DNA of 64,000 nucleotides from Methanobrevibacter smithii ATCC 35061. GTDB lineage: Archaea; Methanobacteriota; Methanobacteria; Methanobacteriales; Methanobacteriaceae. This document shows, piece by piece, positions 1,041 through 14,137 of the stretch (within the stretch, counting starts at the first letter, position 1; every line of letters starts with the position of its first letter). The stretch covers positions 1,266,501 to 1,330,500 of the forward strand of contig NC_009515.1 of assembly GCF_000016525.1 (NCBI RefSeq), written 5' to 3'. The position numbers were made by a program, and so were the translations under genes. Below the pieces are notes generated by a model that saw only the letters and a program-made list of their open reading frames with translations, was not told the origin of the DNA and ran no database searches.

Positions 1041-1991
1041 TTGATTAAAATTTTTGAATTAAAAAGTATAATTTCAATAAAAGATTTTGAAAGAAAGGAT
1101 ATTGATTATATTCTAGATGAAGCATCAAAACTAGAAGATATAGCTAAATCAAAAGAATGCTGTGATGAATTAAAAGGTAAAATCCTTGGATTGATGTTTT
1201 TTGAACCGTCAACAAGAACAAGATTATCTTTTGAAACATCTATGAAACGTTTAGGTGGAAACTGCATAGGTATTGAAAATACAAGATCATGTTCTGTTTC
1301 CAAAGGGGAAAGCATAGCTGACACTGCAAAAATGTTTGAGGGTTACAGTGATGCTTTAGTTATTAGACATGAATTAGAAGGCGTATCCAAATTCATATCA
1401 GATATTGTTGATGTTCCTGTGATAAATGCTGGAGACGGTGCTGGTCAGCATCCTACCCAGACATTACTTGATTTATACACTATCAAAAAAGAATTAGGGC
1501 AAATTGATAACTTAAAAATAGCTTTAGTCGGTGATTTAAAATTTGGTCGTACAGTACATTCCCTGTCCAATGCATTGGGATTATATGATAATGTGGAACT
1601 TTATTTTGTAGCTCCTAAAGAATTAAGAATGCCTCAAGAGGTTTTACACGATTTAAACAAAAAAAATATTCCATATACTGAAGTTGATAGTATAGAAGAA
1701 ATTATTGATAAAGTAGATGTTTTATATGTAACCAGAATCCAAAAAGAACGTTTTGGAGATTTAGATGAATACTTAAAAATAAAAGGAGCTTATATTGTTA
1801 ATAAAAAAATGTTAGAAGGTAAGGATGTTATTGTTATGCACCCATTACCAAGAATTGATGAAATAGCTACTGATTTAGATAACACCAAACATAACAAATA
1901 TTTCAATCAAGCATTTAATGCTGTTCCAGTTAGAATGGCCATTTTAAAAACTTTAATAAAAAACAATCCTAAATGGAATCATATTGAATAA
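1041..1991 (+). CDS. pyrB: Aspartate carbamoyltransferase catalytic chain
   Basis: Condenses carbamoyl phosphate with aspartate in pyrimidine synthesis. The carbamoyl-phosphate loop [12 protein letters not shown] lies near residue 54. The HPTQTLLD motif and the C-terminal HPLPRIDEI motif are both present, and 316 residues is the usual catalytic-chain length. The start is a TTG at 1041; the only nearby ATG (1036) runs into a stop after one codon. The regulatory chain gene pyrI is not in the window. The 3' end overlaps the convergent orc1/cdc6 gene by 13 bases. Confidence 0.93.
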
Positions 1992-3130
1992 AGTGTTTTT
2001 TCAAGTAAATCAGTATCGCATTGAAGTGTTATAATATTAGTTCTTCCTTTTCCACGTCCACGTGATATAGTATTGGTTGAAATAATACCTAACATTTCAA
2101 GTTCATTTATAAAATCAAAAATTCTTCTGTATGTTACAGAATCTCCTTTTGATACTTCTTTGTAGGTATCGTATAATTTACCTGATGTTATTTCTTCATT
2201 ATTCTGAGTAAGTCTTAAAATAGCGTCTAAAACTCTTTGCTGTTGAGTTGGTAGAGTTAAAATAACATCAGTAATTTTATTATGCTCAATTCTATCTTTT
2301 GCCCTTCTTACATAATCGCCAATGATTTTATCAGATTCTTCTTCATCAGCTATTTCCCCAGCAGTTCTAAGTAAATCCAGAGCATATCTTGCATCTCCTT
2401 CTTCTTTAGCTGCCATAGCTGAACATAATGGTATAACATCACTTTCAATTGTATCTTCTTTAAATGACAAACTAGCCCTTTCACTTAAAATATCAGCCAA
2501 TTGATCAGCACCATAAGGCGGAAAAACAATTTCCTTATCCCTTAAACTACTCATTACTCTAGGTGTGATAAACTGTTTAAATTCAACATAATTACTAATG
2601 GACAATATGGATACATTATCAGTTCTTGTTAATGTATATAAAATTCCATCACCATCTTTGCTGAGCAATATGTCGATTTCATCTAAAATAACAATTAAAA
2701 TTAGTTTTTTTCCATAAGCATTTCTTCTGAAAATGTCCCTGAAAGTATTAATAACTTCTCCTTTTGTCCATCCTCTGTGAGGAACATTTCTTCCAAGCTT
2801 TTGACACAGTTGTGCAATAACCTGATATTCTGTTGTGTAGTCAGTACATCGAATATATTCAACTTTTATGAAAACATTTTTATTAGATGCTGCTTCATTT
2901 AACTGTTCACGAGCAAATTTTGCTGCTGCTGTTTTTCCAGTTCCTGTTTTTCCGTAAATAGTAATATCAGATGGAGTAACATTATTTAATGCTTCAATCC
3001 AATATTTAGCTATTTGTGTTATCTGTTCTTTCCTGTGAGGTAAATTTTCAGGTAAAAACCTATGATCTAAAGGTTGTTTATCTTTAAAAACTGATTTTCC
3101 TACCTCCAAGTCATCAAAAATATTTGCCAT
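1979..3130 (-). CDS. cdc6: Orc1/Cdc6 replication initiator
   Basis: AAA+ ATPase that binds origin repeats and loads MCM helicase. Visible are Walker A GKTGTGKT (residues 60-67), Walker [11 protein letters not shown] with D150-E151, a sensor-1 segment ending in N180, and a C-terminal winged-helix region from about residue 290 for DNA binding. The length of 383 residues is normal. The ATG at 3130 is preceded by a GGTGA ribosome site. It is transcribed away from the adjacent repeat-rich AT-rich region, the usual arrangement of an archaeal initiator gene next to its own origin. Confidence 0.93.
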
Positions 3131-3434
3131 ATGTTCACCATTTTAAAAAGTAATAAAAAAATAATCTTAAAAACATGAAAAAATCATAAGTATTATTTCC
3201 AGTGATAATATATGAAAACAGTGTTAAATAAAGGTTTGTATTACAAAATTGTATTGAAATAATAAATTTTATTATAAAATAAAAAATAAAAACATTTAAA
3301 TAAATTAAAATTAACTAAAAAATGTTTAAAATAATTTAATCTATAAAAAACAAATAATTAATAGATTAAATAAAAATTAAAGTGAATATGATTAGTTAAA
3401 ATTAAAACATGAAAAATAACTATTTCAAATATAA

Positions 3435-4040
3435 AGACATATATTTCAAGTGAAAAAAGAGTAATAAAAATAGAATTAATATAATCATAAAATAAATTTA
3501 CAATTTTTAAATTATAAAATAAAAACAGCAAATTAAATATTTTTAAAAAATAAGAAGTTTAAAACAATTTTTTATAAAATAAATTATTTTAAAAATTTTT
3601 TAAAAAAATAAAAACAATAAAAATAAAGCTAAAACAATTTTTATTTCAAAATTAAAGAAGATAAATTTCAATTGTAATAATTTCAGTTAAATATAATATT
3701 TATCTGAGCATTTGAAAAATAAAACATATATTTCAAGTGAAAAAAAATCTGAAAAAGGATTTAATAAAAAAATTTATAATGATTTATCATAAAAAGTGAG
3801 AGATAAATTTCAAGTGTAATGCAATTTTTAGCGGGAAGCAAAAATCAAGACATTGATTTCAAGTGAAAAAAAATTTTAAAATGAATTAAAAAAGTTATTT
3901 CAGTAAAAAAAGAATGGAAAATGTTTTATTTTAAATTTAAACCAAGAAAAATTAAGATAAATTTCAAGTGTTTTTACAGATGAAATACATGTCTTCATTC
4001 CTACAGAACCTTCGCAGAGCTTTCACTTGAAATTCATGTC
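3435..4040. repeat. Origin recognition box-like repeats (two classes)
   Basis: Seven related copies. Class A reads roughly GACATATATTTCAAGTGAAA and occurs at about 3435-3457, 3723-3743, 3847-3870 and, inverted, 4021-4040. Class B reads AGATAAATTTCAAGTGT and occurs at about 3801-3817 and 3955-3971. A variant with CAATTG in place of CAAGTG is at about 3660-3676. The two classes alternate along the region. They are the likely Orc1/Cdc6 binding sites, by analogy to archaeal ORB and mini-ORB elements. Confidence 0.75.
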
Positions 4041-4053
4041 TGTCTGTCTGTCT
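4037..4053. repeat. TGTC tetranucleotide microrepeat
   Basis: Four tandem TGTC units plus a trailing T, directly abutting the inverted class A origin repeat. It is the only simple tetranucleotide run noticed in the origin region. It may be a slippage product or part of an extended binding site. Confidence 0.7.
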
Positions 4054-4069
4054 AAAATTTATAAAAAAA

Positions 4070-4555
4070 TTATACAAACATACTGTTTTCATTGTGTGGT
4101 TTTGAATTATTATTGTTTAAATTGCCAAAATCGTAATTTAATAACATTATACAATGTAATTTAGCTTTAAACACACGTTTAATAGTTTTAAATAATGCAT
4201 CTTTAGTTAAACCATCTTCATAAATATTATCAGTAACAACATATTGCTGTAAAATATCTTGATCTACTTTTAATTCATAGTCAACTAAAAATAAGTTTAA
4301 ATTAGTACTTACATCAAATAAAAATTTATTTTTTTCCTGAGGAGATGCATTTTGCATTAGACTAATATGTTCTGGTGCTACTTGTGTTGCACAACCAATA
4401 ACAATTACATCTTTTTCTTTTGGTTTTACAACATCCATTACATTATCTTTAGGAAATTCAATAACAAAATGGAAATCTGCATTTTCATCAGCAGCTTTTT
4501 CTCTAAAGACACCTTCGTCAGCTAACCAGTTTTTAACATCTTGTTCAATTGTCAT
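4070..4555 (-). CDS. DUF2299-like conserved archaeal protein
   Basis: A 161-residue soluble protein of unknown function. The N-terminal region (WLADEGVFREKAADENADFHFVIEFP, quoted in part: FREKAADENADFHFVIEFP) resembles what I recall of the DUF2299 family, whose fold is related to small chaperone-like proteins. There is no signal peptide or membrane segment. The last 20 residues are asparagine-rich and probably disordered. The ATG at 4555 follows a GGTGA ribosome site. It flanks the origin region opposite orc1/cdc6, but a replication role is not shown. Confidence 0.55.
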   Translation of the reverse strand: MTIEQDVKNWLADEGVFREKAADENADFHFVIEFPKDNVMDVVKPKEKDVIVIGCATQVAPEHISLMQNASPQEKNKFLFDVSTNLNLFLVDYELKVDQDILQQYVVTDNIYEDGLTKDALFKTIKRVFKAKLHCIMLLNYDFGNLNNNNSKPHNENSMFV

Positions 4556-5661: not shown

Positions 5662-6677
5662 AAATAGCTATTATATCTGTTTCAAAAAAAGGTTATGAAC
5701 TATCTTTATTATTAAAGGAACATCTGGATAAAGATTCAACTATCATCAACACTGATATTTATTATAAGGATGTTAAAAACACTTTCAAATTATTATTTTA
5801 TGAATATGATGCAATTATAGCTATTATGGCTTCTGGAATTTTAATTAGAAGTATTGCACCATTAATCAAATCAAAGGTTTGTGGTCCTGCTATTTTAAAC
5901 ATTGATGAAAATGCTAATTTTGTAATCAGTACATTATCCGGTCATCTGGGAGGTGCTAATAAACTTACATCAAAAGTAGCTAACATGTTAAATGCAACAG
6001 AAGTCATTACAACTGCAACTGATGTCAACAAAAAGTTAGGTGTTGATGTAATAGCTAAAGATTTATATTTGACAGTTAAAAATCCAAAAGAAATCGTATA
6101 CTTTAATAAAGCTATTTTAAACAATGAAGAAATAATATTCAGAGTCAACAGTAAAGAAAACTATGATTTTTTATTTGATTATTTAAATGAAAATACACTT
6201 GAAATTGATGTTTCAATTGAATTTACCAGTTCCATAAATACAGATGAAATACATGTCTTATATAAAAATCATAAACTGATAATGAAAATTGAAGATATTG
6301 TTGTCGGTATTGGCTGCAGACGCGGAAAATCCAAAGAAGACATTTTAACAGGTCTTGATAAAGCACTTGATGATTTAAATATTTCTAAAAAAAGATTATC
6401 TAAACTAGCTTCAGGTGAAATTAAGAAAGAAGAAACAGGTATTTTGGATTTAAGTAAAATGTTAAATATTCCAGTTAATTTTGTTGAAATGGACAAACTG
6501 ACTTTATTCAAATCAGAGGATATACATGAATCCGAATTTGTAAAATCTAAATTTGGTGTTGGCAGTGTGTCTGAAGCTTCTGCTTTAATTACAGCAGGCT
6601 TTGATTCAAAATTAATTTATAAAAAAACAGCTTTTGATGGTGTTACAATAGCTTTAGCTGTTTCTAAAAAAGATTAA
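5658..6677 (+). CDS. cbiG: Cobalt-precorrin-5A hydrolase
   Basis: Opens the delta-lactone of cobalt-precorrin-5A in anaerobic corrin-ring synthesis, releasing acetaldehyde. The N-terminal domain begins MKIAIISVSKKGYEL and contains a conserved SGHLGGANKL segment near residue 95. The C-terminal CbiG domain begins at about residue 213 with VVGIGCRRGKSKEDI and ends with the usual AFDGVTIALA strand. At 339 residues it is complete. It is coupled to cbiB by overlapping start and stop, and convergent with the UPF0147 gene. Confidence 0.93.
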   Translation: MKIAIISVSKKGYELSLLLKEHLDKDSTIINTDIYYKDVKNTFKLLFYEYDAIIAIMASGILIRSIAPLIKSKVCGPAILNIDENANFVISTLSGHLGGANKLTSKVANMLNATEVITTATDVNKKLGVDVIAKDLYLTVKNPKEIVYFNKAILNNEEIIFRVNSKENYDFLFDYLNENTLEIDVSIEFTSSINTDEIHVLYKNHKLIMKIEDIVVGIGCRRGKSKEDILTGLDKALDDLNISKKRLSKLASGEIKKEETGILDLSKMLNIPVNFVEMDKLTLFKSEDIHESEFVKSKFGVGSVSEASALITAGFDSKLIYKKTAFDGVTIALAVSKKD

Positions 6678-7872: not shown

Positions 7873-9588
7873 TTAAATGAACTTTAAACATTTATATTTC
7901 CCTTTGTAAAGTACAGGGACTTCAGCAGGGGTTGGTTCAATATTATAAATTTTCTGGAACTCTGTCTGAGTCTGAAATGTTCCAGAATTAATTAAATGAA
8001 TACCATTGTATTTTTTATGGGTGTTAATGTGAACATGCCCTGTATGGAAGACATCTGGAACTTCATCAATTACTAAATAATCTTCAAGTTCTGAAGCAAG
8101 CGGAGTTCTTTCTCCGTAAATTGGAGCTAAATGTCTTTTTTTAAGTAATTCTTCCATTAACAAATCGTTTTTCTCATGGGTAAACTCTTTAACTGCCATT
8201 ACCAAATCGTCAAAACTACGTCCGTGGTAAATTAAAACATTAATACCGTCTAAAGAGACAACACCAGGGTTACTTATAAATTCTACATTATCAAGTTCAT
8301 ATAAAGCTTTTGCATACTCTTCAGGTACTGCAGGTTGAGGTTCTGCCACTCTAGATGCATCGTGGTTTCCAGGAGCAATAATAATTTTAATATCACTTCT
8401 AATGTTTCCTAAAAATCTGGCTGCTTCATTGTATTGCTGAGTAATGTCTTTAATAGCCAGTTCTTTTTCCTGATTTGGATATACACCAATACCATCTACA
8501 ATATCTCCACCAATAACAAGATATTTAACACTTTCAGCTATTTTTACTTGTTCTTCATTTCCAAATTCACAATTAATCCAGTCTATAAATCTAGTAAATG
8601 CATCTTCCAAAAAGGTTAAACTTCCTATGTGAACATCAGATAAGAATACAATACTGAAATCCATTTCTTTTTTAGGTATTCTCATAACTCCAGGATTTAT
8701 AATTTCATTTCCGATAGCCAAATCACCATTTTTATCAGCAAGAACACCGATAACTTCATCTTTAACTAGTTTTTCAGCTTCTTTAAAGACTTCTTCATTT
8801 TTATTTGAAAATAGTATTGGAATAGTTCCTGTATCATCTTCAAATTCAATAAGTTTATGGCCATTTTTAGTGGATCTGATTTCCCTAACCATTAAAATAA
8901 GGCTTAAATTACTTTGACCTTCTTCAATATCAGCTACTTTTGTGTAATTTTTAAGTTCCGGTCTTTTAACCAGAATATTAGCTAATTTTTCATATCTGCT
9001 TTGGAAATAAGCAATTAAGTTTTCAAGTTCTCCACTTGTGTATGATTTTTTACTTGTGTCCTGTATGATTTTAAAGTCATATTCTACATTTGTTTTTGTT
9101 AAATTCCTTTTAAATTTGACTTTTTTATTTTCTACAGTTTCTAAAGCTTCTGCATTTTCCTTGTTAACGTATTTTTCTTTAACATCAGATTCTTTTTTAA
9201 AATCACTAATGCTGGATGGTTTTTTAGTTTCTTCTTTAGGTTTAGGTTCTACAGTAGGTTTTTTAGTTTCTTCTTTAGGTTTAGGTTCTACAGTAGGTTT
9301 TTTAGTTTCTTCTTTAGGTTTAGGTTCTACAGTAGGTTTTTTAGTTTCTTTTTGTGTTAATTGAGGTCTTGTTGTTGATTTTTCAATTGTGCTATTTCTC
9401 ATTATTTCATCAACAGTTTGACCGCTAACTGAAACTAAATCTTTAGATTTAAAATCACCTCCTTTTAATTTAACAATTAATGAAGAGGTAAAATCTAGAG
9501 GATTTTCAGCTTCAAGAACTTTTTTATAAGCCTCTGGTGATAGGTTAATTCCCTTTTTTGCAAATTTTAATAAAATTTTATTAGTCAT
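7873..9588 (-). CDS. polB: DNA polymerase II (PolD) small subunit DP1
   Basis: Exonuclease subunit of the euryarchaeal replicative polymerase D. Calcineurin-type metallophosphatase motifs are present in order: [30 protein letters not shown] and GHVHINTH, followed by [12 protein letters not shown]. An OB-fold domain precedes them at roughly residues 215-310. Residues about 80-130 form a low-complexity lysine/proline/glutamate linker of tandem repeats joining the N-terminal helical domain to the core. The partner large subunit DP2 is not in this window. The ribosome site is weak and the start is the first ATG. Confidence 0.95.
9218..9350. repeat. 39-base tandem repeat, 3.4 copies, inside DP1 gene
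   Basis: Units at 9218-9256, 9257-9295 and 9296-9334 are identical, with a partial fourth unit to 9350. Each encodes the 13-residue unit [13 protein letters not shown] in the DP1 linker. Perfect identity at the DNA level indicates recent expansion by slippage or unequal recombination. Because the unit length is a multiple of three, copy-number change keeps the frame. Confidence 0.95.
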
Positions 9589-12020: not shown

Positions 12021-13274
12021 ATGAAACAGAAGATGATTCGACATCCTTATTCTACCTTTTCATCATTTCTAAAAGAACATAATAATATTTTAAAAGAAAG
12101 TCTTATAGCTTTGTTAATCTGTGCCTGTGGAGATTTAGTTGCAGGTATAGTTCTTGGAAGAATGGATATTTTTCTTGAAACTTTTCCTGGACTATTGGTT
12201 ATTATTCCTGGAGCTATAGGAATGAGGGGAAACATTTTTGGTTCTTTTGCATCCAGATTATCCACAGCATTACATATTGGTATAATAGATCCTAAATTTA
12301 ACCGTTCTGAAGAGTTAATTAATAATATTTTCTCTTCATTTGTGTTGACTTTATTTTTATCCTTATTTTTAGCTATCATTGCTAAAGTTATCTGTGTAAT
12401 ATTCGGTTTTCCGTCAATGGATATTGTAGATTTTATTTTAATTAGCTTAATAGCTGGAGTAATTTCTATAGTTATAATGCTTCCAGTTACAATGTTTATT
12501 TCATTTAGAAGTTTTGAACGTGGTTGGGATCCGGATAATGTTACAACTCCATTAGTTGCTGCTGTTGGAGATTTATTTACATTGCCTGCTATTGTAGTGG
12601 CTCTTTTTATAATCTCTGCTCTAAAATCAGTTGTATATTTAGAGTTGATAGTCTTTATAATAGTAATTCCACTTGTATTATTCAGTTTTGTATACTGTTA
12701 CAACTATTCAGAAGAAAATAAGGTGATTATAAAACAGTCTACACCAGTTTTATTAGTATGTTCTGTTTTAGGAGTATCTGCAGGAGGAATTCTTAACAGT
12801 TCACTTGAAACATTACTTACAAATCCAACATTACTTACATTAGTGCCTTTATTTTCAGGAGAAAGCGGTGGTTTAGTAAGTATTTTATCAGCAAGACTAT
12901 CTTCAGGTATACATTCAGGTCTTATAGAACCTCTTAAAAGACCTGAAGGTGAATCTGTACATAATTTTGCAATTATATTATTGTTGGCTCTTATAATGTA
13001 TCCATTTATAGGAATTCTTGCAGAATCATCATCTGTTTTCTTAAATATAGTTGGTATTGGCTTTGATAAAATAATATTGATAAGTTCAATTGCAGGATTT
13101 ATTTTAATCCCTATTATGTTGATTTTGGTCTATTATATTTCAATTGTTTCATATGATAATGGATATGATCCGGATAATATTTTAATTCCAATTTCAACAA
13201 GTATTACAGATGCAATATCCAGTTTAATACTTATTTCTGTGTCATTAATTATTACTGCAGTTATTTTTATTTAA
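12021..13274 (+). CDS. MgtE/SLC41-type divalent cation transporter, duplicated
   Basis: About 417 residues with roughly ten hydrophobic spans arranged as two homologous halves. Each half contains the paired signatures PGAIGMRGNIFGSFASRLS and, in the second half, FSGESGGLVSILSARLSSG; each half ends with a GWDPDNVTTPL or GYDPDNILIPI motif lining the pore. The family moves magnesium or other divalent cations. There is no cytosolic CBS regulatory domain; the upstream PhoU/TrkA_C protein may supply regulation. GTG 12012 is an alternative start, but GAGAGGTAGTGAT precedes ATG 12021. It overlaps the convergent gene by 4 bases. Confidence 0.82.
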   Translation: MKQKMIRHPYSTFSSFLKEHNNILKESLIALLICACGDLVAGIVLGRMDIFLETFPGLLVIIPGAIGMRGNIFGSFASRLSTALHIGIIDPKFNRSEELINNIFSSFVLTLFLSLFLAIIAKVICVIFGFPSMDIVDFILISLIAGVISIVIMLPVTMFISFRSFERGWDPDNVTTPLVAAVGDLFTLPAIVVALFIISALKSVVYLELIVFIIVIPLVLFSFVYCYNYSEENKVIIKQSTPVLLVCSVLGVSAGGILNSSLETLLTNPTLLTLVPLFSGESGGLVSILSARLSSGIHSGLIEPLKRPEGESVHNFAIILLLALIMYPFIGILAESSSVFLNIVGIGFDKIILISSIAGFILIPIMLILVYYISIVSYDNGYDPDNILIPISTSITDAISSLILISVSLIITAVIFI

Positions 13275-14137
13275 TACCACCCTTTCAGGATAAATTCACA
13301 GTTATTTGTTCTAAAATAATCATAATCCAGTTTTGATTTATCAAAATCTTTTGGAACAGAAACTAAAAGGGCTTTGACATCTTTTTTATTAAAATGGATA
13401 AACATTATTGAACTAAAATCGACTATTGGAAATTCTAGGTTTATTCTATTATTTAAATATATTTTATTGCTTGTAACACTTTCTACAACAGGTAGTTTTA
13501 TTCTGGTATTGTCCATACACCATTTTAAGTTATCTGCTGAATCTTTGTCAATTAATAAATAATAATCATTGCTTCTTAAGTAATTTCTATATATCTTGAA
13601 ATAATTGCAGCTATAGCCATCCTTGTGGTTATGATTGCATTTTCCTTTTGTTTGAAAATCTTTTACAACGTATTTTTTATAAAAATCACATTTAACCATT
13701 CTGTTTACACTGTAAACGTTTTTTCCGTCATCTGGTGAACCAATTTTTACACTTGAAATACTGCTCTCTTTAGGGATGACTTCCATTGAAGTTTTAATTT
13801 TTGAATCAAAAAGATTCTTGTCAACTAGTTTTCTATAATTTTTACCTAAAATTAAAAATTTATCATAAGAAATACTATTTGGAATAATAGCTTCATTTTC
13901 ATTTGAAATAGCTAATCCTGGGGTACCTGCTAAATATTTTTCCCAATTTGGAGTTCCCGGATTATTAATTAAGTTATCTGCACTTTGAGAAAGCAATAAT
14001 TCAATATTTTCATTTTCTGTTGATGTAGCTAGTTTATCTAATGTAATTTCACTAAATTTAGCTGTTATACCAATTATTAATAAAATAACAACCAACACAA
14101 CCAATATTTCAGTTGAAATACTTCCCTTTTCATTCAT
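13271..14137 (-). CDS. Type IV pilin-like exported protein
   Basis: The 288-residue protein starts MNEKGSISTEILVVLVVIL: after the likely prepilin peptidase site KG, glutamate is at position +5 of the mature protein, followed by a hydrophobic helix. This is the class III signal seen in archaeal pilins. The rest is a soluble outer domain of unknown family with a Cys/His cluster (KCNHNHKDGYSCNYF near residue 165). Its ATG overlaps the stop of the upstream gene (TAATG), so the two are coupled. No pilin ATPase or platform gene is nearby. Confidence 0.6.
   Translation of the reverse strand: MNEKGSISTEILVVLVVILLIIGITAKFSEITLDKLATSTENENIELLLSQSADNLINNPGTPNWEKYLAGTPGLAISNENEAIIPNSISYDKFLILGKNYRKLVDKNLFDSKIKTSMEVIPKESSISSVKIGSPDDGKNVYSVNRMVKCDFYKKYVVKDFQTKGKCNHNHKDGYSCNYFKIYRNYLRSNDYYLLIDKDSADNLKWCMDNTRIKLPVVESVTSNKIYLNNRINLEFPIVDFSSIMFIHFNKKDVKALLVSVPKDFDKSKLDYDYFRTNNCEFILKGWY

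Follow-up and report, generated by a model that had tools for sequence, protein, structure and literature searches.

A predicted chromosomal origin of Methanobrevibacter smithii in which conserved satellite boxes appear to accompany a single class of ORB

Introduction

The closest described relatives of the origin considered here lie in the same order. The M. thermautotrophicus origin is called verified where PMC2812497 mentions it, and the M. ruminantium oriC was assigned directly upstream of cdc6-1 from skew and from homology to that origin (PMC2812497). For the Methanobacteriaceae, Ori-Finder 2/DoriC gives the ORB motif TT[TA]CACTTGAAAT[GTA]T[CT][CG]TC (PMC4164010, Table 1); the tool scans intergenic sequence only. 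Binding of archaeal Orc1/Cdc6 to ORBs is directional, and MCM is loaded at the DUE, which lies between opposed ORBs (PMC6742236). Sulfolobus oriC1 likewise has opposed ORBs around an AT-rich element, the DUE, with a different ORB sequence that carries a G-string and with three origins per chromosome (PMC6742236).

Initiator boxes also occur beyond origins. In Bacillus subtilis, clusters of DnaA boxes outside the origin modulate initiation. The Haloarcula hispanica oriC2D, an ORB-rich region downstream of oriC2 with 11 clustered ORBs directly downstream of cdc6E, has been proposed to titrate Cdc6E (PMC3936714). As far as it is described in that paper, E. coli datA is comparable, with off-origin initiator boxes that modulate initiation, these being clusters for a bacterial initiator (PMC3936714). 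Here we analyse the array of repeats upstream of cdc6-1 in M. smithii, and the ORB-like boxes around it, against these systems.

Results

An ORB array adjoins cdc6-1 at the predicted origin

The window that we analysed is a 64,000-nucleotide stretch (positions 1266501-1330500) of a genome consisting of a single contig of 1,853,160 bp. It carries the cdc6-1/orc1 initiator gene at 1979..3130 on the minus strand (Pfam Cdc6_lid, Cdc6_C and AAA; TIGR02928, 394.8 bits). The solved relatives of the protein are 2qby (chains A and B) and 2v1u, structures that we take to be ORB complexes. Between the gene and ORF 4070-4555 lies a 939-bp AT-rich gap, which holds the array upstream of cdc6-1: ten ORB sites at 3187-4041, two of them inverted. 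GC skew, taken from sampled 20-kb stretches totalling about 460 kb, runs from -0.05 to -0.20 at 1.17-1.27 Mb and is mostly +0.08 to +0.20 beyond, with one slightly negative 20-kb bin right of the origin, so that the sign changes at the locus. The locus thus has the adjacent gene, the opposed intergenic ORBs and the skew sign change by which orc1/cdc6-adjacent origins are recognized, and ORB arrays adjoin cdc6-1 in every sampled genus of the order. Because of the cdc6-1 adjacency, the skew change, the order-wide arrays and the oriC assigned in M. ruminantium (PMC2812497), this locus is very probably the chromosomal oriC, in agreement with the earlier note.

A second cdc6 gene, with 28% identity, is present in the genome. 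A scan of its locus found no ORB-like site, and a second origin or second set of ORBs at cdc6-2 was rejected on these grounds. Separately, the relative G042 carries three perfect ORBs at C1:271704-271822, spaced by 46 and 53 bp and about 230 kb from its main origin, which may be a second array or an integrated element.

The core ATTTCAAGTG occurs in exactly six exact copies in 3443-4033, at 3443, 3730, 3807, 3856 and 3961 on one strand and, inverted, at 4024; the copy at 3665 is the variant ATTTCAATTG. These account for the seven copies counted in the earlier note, which overlooked an eighth, inverted one with its core at 3977 (ttttaCAGATGAAATacATGTCTtca; site 3974-3994) that forms a head-to-head pair with the 3961 copy. 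On the cdc6 side the array has two weaker members, with cores at 3422 (TATTTGAAAT) and 3195 (CACTGGAAAT). Over the whole window there are nine exact cores, against 0.45 expected from dinucleotide shuffles (0 of 100 shuffles reach nine).

Both flank types fit a single ORB

Two types of flank had been described as alternating classes, A and B, and both are visible: ATGT together with T before CACTT in the copies at 3443, 3730, 3856 and 4024, and ATCT together with A before CACTT in those at 3665, 3807 and 3961. One flank had been misread: at 3730 it is AACAT rather than GACAT. The eighth copy is mixed, with ATGTCT as in class A and, preceding the core, the base A of class B. Placed in register, class A is TTTCACTTGAAATnnATGTCT and class B is TTACACTTGAAATTTATCTCT, and they differ mainly at two single bases, -1 (T/A) and 14 (G/C). 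Both fit the published Methanobacteriaceae motif, in which [TA] and [CG] are already variable.

We compared 80 named genome loci and 20 further regions across genera, using an ORB matrix built from 685 sites (TTTACACTTGAAATatA[CT][CG]TCT); slot statistics refer to 67 Methanobrevibacter-type loci, some of which represent one genome twice or are close relatives. Across 324 boxes, bases -1 and 14 were unlinked (odds ratio 1.18, Fisher p=0.62; no slot significant), and a linkage between them was rejected. Judged by these alignments, A and B are one ORB, TTWCACTTGAAATnnAYSTCT, that varies at base -1 and base 14.

Nor is the alternation a conserved feature, a possibility that we rejected: 3 of the 67 loci, the M. 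smithii window among them, alternate strictly from the second slot, the commonest class string along the array is BBBABx, and the class at a given slot often differs between species. Two extra boxes, S4' (class A; 3722..3742, minus strand) and S5' (the B-variant; 3657..3677, minus strand), lie between S5 and S6. They are common to M. smithii and its sister and missing in most relatives, and their segment aligns with the S4-S5 unit at a score of 85, against a maximum of 63 in plain shuffles, which control composition roughly. This duplicated A-B pair accounts for part of the A-B-A-B run, which the inverted copy at 3974-3994 keeps from being strictly alternating. The alternation is best explained as a recent pattern at species level, which arose in part when the S4-S5 pair was duplicated to give S4'-S5'. 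The alignment with relatives that the earlier note had suggested as a check went against its ordered classes, with the class bases unlinked and the order not kept.

The 3' variants are distributed otherwise. TG is concentrated in S4 (34/67) and in satellite D (27/35), and ATGTCT and ACCTCT are non-random over slots and arms; among strong sites in Methanothermobacter, CC is found in 7/7 on the distal arm and TG in 8/11 on the proximal arm. In three loci of family f3, probably Methanothermobacter (L112, L113 and L116), we observed that the distal boxes read ACCTCT and the proximal ones mostly ATGTCT. Taken as Methanothermobacter, the same loci share with M. smithii an intergenic ORB array adjacent to cdc6-1, the CACTTGAAA core and inverted arms, but have about 12-13 ORBs at roughly 50-bp steps.

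Array slots keep their position, orientation and tail

In the 67 loci the spacing of the slots is kept: 46-49 bp from S1 to S2, 12-18 bp from S2 to S3 and 46-50 bp from S4 to S5. Relative to cdc6, S1 and S2 are (-) and S3, S4 and S5 are (+), and S6, S7 and S8 approach the cdc6 start. On the distal side of the window, S1 (4021..4053, plus strand; 67 loci, consensus TTtCACTTGAAAtacAcCTCTC.CTCTCTAa) is the outer box; it is the inverted class A copy beside a TGTC run reported previously, with its core at 4024. The run is the counterpart of the CTCTCnCTCT tail of relatives. We rejected a separate microsatellite, as the run is a variant pyrimidine tail of the outer box, which is CTCTC in relatives. 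The inner distal box is the previously missed inverted ORB S2 (CAGATGAAATACATGTCTTCA; 3974..3994, plus strand; 67 loci), and S3 (class B; 3953..3973, minus strand; 57 loci) stands head-to-head with it. Between these opposed ORBs and S4 runs an AT-rich gap (3869..3952), the equivalent of which in relatives is 83% AT with a mean of 72 bp. This gap is a candidate unwinding element, and the least stable DNA of the intergenic region lies outside it, near 3280-3360, between S6 and S8.

On the proximal side, S4 (class A; 3848..3868, minus strand; 67 loci) is the inner box, with a CTTGA tail, and S5 (class B; 3799..3819, minus strand; 67 loci) the outer one, with a CTCTC-type tail. S6 (3435..3455, minus strand), assigned to class A in the earlier note, was placed by matrix and slot alignment, and the weak box S7 (TATTTGAAAT; 3414..3434, minus strand) follows 19-22 bp from S6 in 35 loci; in relatives it falls within the palindrome GAAATAGTACTATTTC. 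The S6-S7 segment (3414-3455) corresponds in relatives to a conserved block, CACTTGAAAT..TtaTcTTATATTTGAAATAGTACTATTTCAT, that includes this palindrome and may bind a factor other than Cdc6. S8 (CACTGGAAAT; 3187..3207, minus strand; 49 loci, consensus TATTAACACTGGAAATTATACTtaT) is separated from the cdc6 start codon by about 70 bp and may be part of the cdc6 promoter. Through this divergent box, CACTGGAAATTATACT, which 49 relatives share, cdc6 transcription may be tied to the level of Cdc6.

The tails differ between slots in a symmetric manner. The outer boxes S1 and S5 have CTCTC-type tails, and the inner boxes S2 and S4 have CTTCA or CTTGA (CTTSA-type) tails: position 18 is C in S1 and S5 (57/67 and 64/67) versus T in S2 and S4 (57/67 and 59/67), and position 20 is A in S2 and S4 (61/67 and 63/67). 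What is conserved in the aligned arrays is thus slot position, orientation and slot-specific tail. Since these tails are conserved and symmetric, a weaker form of the two-class proposal survives, namely that the ORB boxes would not all be interchangeable.

Satellite boxes around the array are conserved and constrained

A whole-genome pattern search, used together with sampled stretches for site density, placed 9 of the 13 ORB-like sites outside the array within 25 kb of it, against 0.35 expected; the same clustering tendency around the array was seen in six further genomes. Two of these satellite ORBs lie inside cbiG on the plus strand: D1 (6193..6213), conserved at about -2.8 kb, and, 45 bp from it, D2 (6238..6258), which shares the 20-mer TACAGATGAAATACATGTCT with the S2 site. 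Another, at about -10.6 kb (13747..13767, plus strand; 23 genomes), is antisense in ORF 13271-14137, and a weaker ORB-like site 360 bp from it (14107..14127, plus strand) is also present in the relative G037. A further satellite lies outside the window, at genome positions 1259023-1259043 (L136:12523-12543).

Some other features of the region were observed. A weaker ORB-like site lies at -1.3 kb, where constraint on the site and coding constraint are undivided. The same applies to the conserved context of a weaker site about 118 kb upstream of cdc6 (L139:16889-16909; genome 1387389), which has counterparts in two genomes, G039 and G042. The protein encoded at 7873-9588, which by our own reading resembles the small subunit of DNA polymerase D, has tandem 13-residue repeats near its N-terminus.

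The array-trained matrix was then run over as much as 13 kb to either side of cdc6 in 27 Methanobrevibacter-group genomes (691 kb). Outside the array there were 97 sites in the 27 genomes, 93 of them in one orientation; reversed sequence gave 0 sites, and with 40 column-permuted matrices the mean was 0.28 and the maximum 2. The satellites recur at -10.3 kb (23 genomes), at -2.8 kb (21 genomes, in a strict window) and at +9 kb (26 genomes, measured from the cdc6 end). A Methanosphaera-like genome carries the cbiG site, and one Methanothermobacter genome (G148) had no satellite ORBs within 20 kb.

In the -2.8 kb satellite inside cbiG the codons are frozen, with Thr ACA in 22/22 and Leu CTT in 22/22, whereas the other Leu codons of cbiG are mixed and mostly TTA. 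At the -10.3 kb satellite, ATT TCA AGT GTA is constant wherever the amino acids are; codons 127-131 form the most conserved synonymous window of ORF 13271-14137 (0.99 versus a median of 0.62), an ORF without a Pfam match. The +9 kb satellite is intergenic, following a gene that we take from its protein to be gatA, and its footprint is 0.91 conserved versus 0.56 in the flanks. Synonymous codon conservation led us to reject a by-product of protein conservation for the cbiG and 13271 sites, and the intergenic footprint did so for the +9 kb satellite. The literature searched contained no prior account of such satellite ORBs, and queries for scattered ORBs returned only the Haloarcula cluster. The conserved set thus appears to be a new element.

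Discussion

We propose, with a probability of about 0.88, that this locus is an oriC with one ORB class bound by Cdc6-1, in which the slots are under selection and the satellites belong to the same system. Cdc6-1/Orc1, made from the adjacent gene, would bind TTWCACTTGAAATnnAYSTCT followed by a pyrimidine tail. The pairs S1,S2 and S4,S5, with S3 opposed to S2, enclose the short AT-rich gap, where initiators facing in opposite directions could load two MCM helicases, and selection would keep slot position, orientation and slot-specific tail. The satellites would most likely bind Cdc6-1 at a distance from the origin and adjust initiation, through titration or through organisation of the origin domain.

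How far do the boxes differ in function? A possibility that we judge to be less likely than not is that there are two functional ORB classes, with Cdc6-1 affinity or footprint set by the slot tails or by the 3' variant (ATGTCT versus ACCTCT/ATCTCT); by analogy with strong and weak DnaA boxes, a high-affinity anchor might then contrast with state-dependent sites. The conserved tail positions 18 and 20, the enrichment of TG in S4 and D and the split of variants by arm in Methanothermobacter all speak for it, but bases -1 and 14 are independent, the alternation is not conserved and the class of a slot shifts between species. It is improbable that one of the classes is the target of another DNA-binding protein, be it Cdc6-2 or some unrelated factor. 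A second cdc6 gene does exist, and in Sulfolobus paralogues and other proteins share origins (PMC6742236; PMC12141716); yet the ORB core is common to all boxes, the cdc6-2 locus lacks an ORB-like site and the classes are inseparable in relatives. Two states of Orc1/Cdc6, or a second protein, as the earlier note had offered, are thus neither shown nor needed. Least credible of all, and barely worth entertaining, is that the array is a non-origin repeat such as mobile-element iterons or a promoter operator. A regulatory-looking gene adjoins the repeats and the spacer is AT-rich, but the ORB arrays by cdc6-1 across the order, the fixed Methanobrevibacter spacing and the skew change all oppose it.

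The satellites invite a reading of their own, that they regulate transcription or that their ORB-like motif is read by another origin-domain protein, a segregation or chromatin factor. They are single, partly intragenic and in the same orientation over both arms, a bias unlike the two-sided array. Against this, the match to the ORB extends over 21 positions and the intergenic copies reach the maximum matrix score, and promoter regulation fits poorly with one satellite antisense in a gene and one sense in cbiG; we therefore consider such roles unlikely. Our best guess is that the satellites are Cdc6-1 sites that tune initiation. It seems somewhat more probable than otherwise that single satellite ORBs at -10, -3 and +9 kb, in one orientation and two of them in constrained genes, control initiation with the array, whether they hold Cdc6-1 or instead loop or mark the origin domain. 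The architectural role, looping or marking, is nearly as likely as titration, because titration would seem to need more than three to five single boxes, and replication reaches a box 10 kb away almost at once. Their single orientation on both arms argues against a role in fork polarity.

Compared with the described systems, the published motif (PMC4164010) takes in both classes, and the slot tails and satellites are absent from it. Like oriC2D, the satellites are initiator boxes beyond the origin, but oriC2D is a cluster, whereas they are single boxes in fixed orientation. The clusters of DnaA boxes in B. subtilis serve a bacterial initiator, whereas the Methanobrevibacter satellites are mostly single boxes. 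A titration locus is defined by initiator boxes that cluster outside the origin; the satellites, single boxes or pairs, do not form such a cluster.

The control of initiation is poorly understood in archaea and has hardly been studied in methanogens. If our reading is true, satellites whose distances are fixed and whose orientation is uniform could be a means of replication control, and the slot-specific tails and satellite ORBs provide named sites at which titration or origin-domain architecture can be tested in a dominant archaeon of the human gut.
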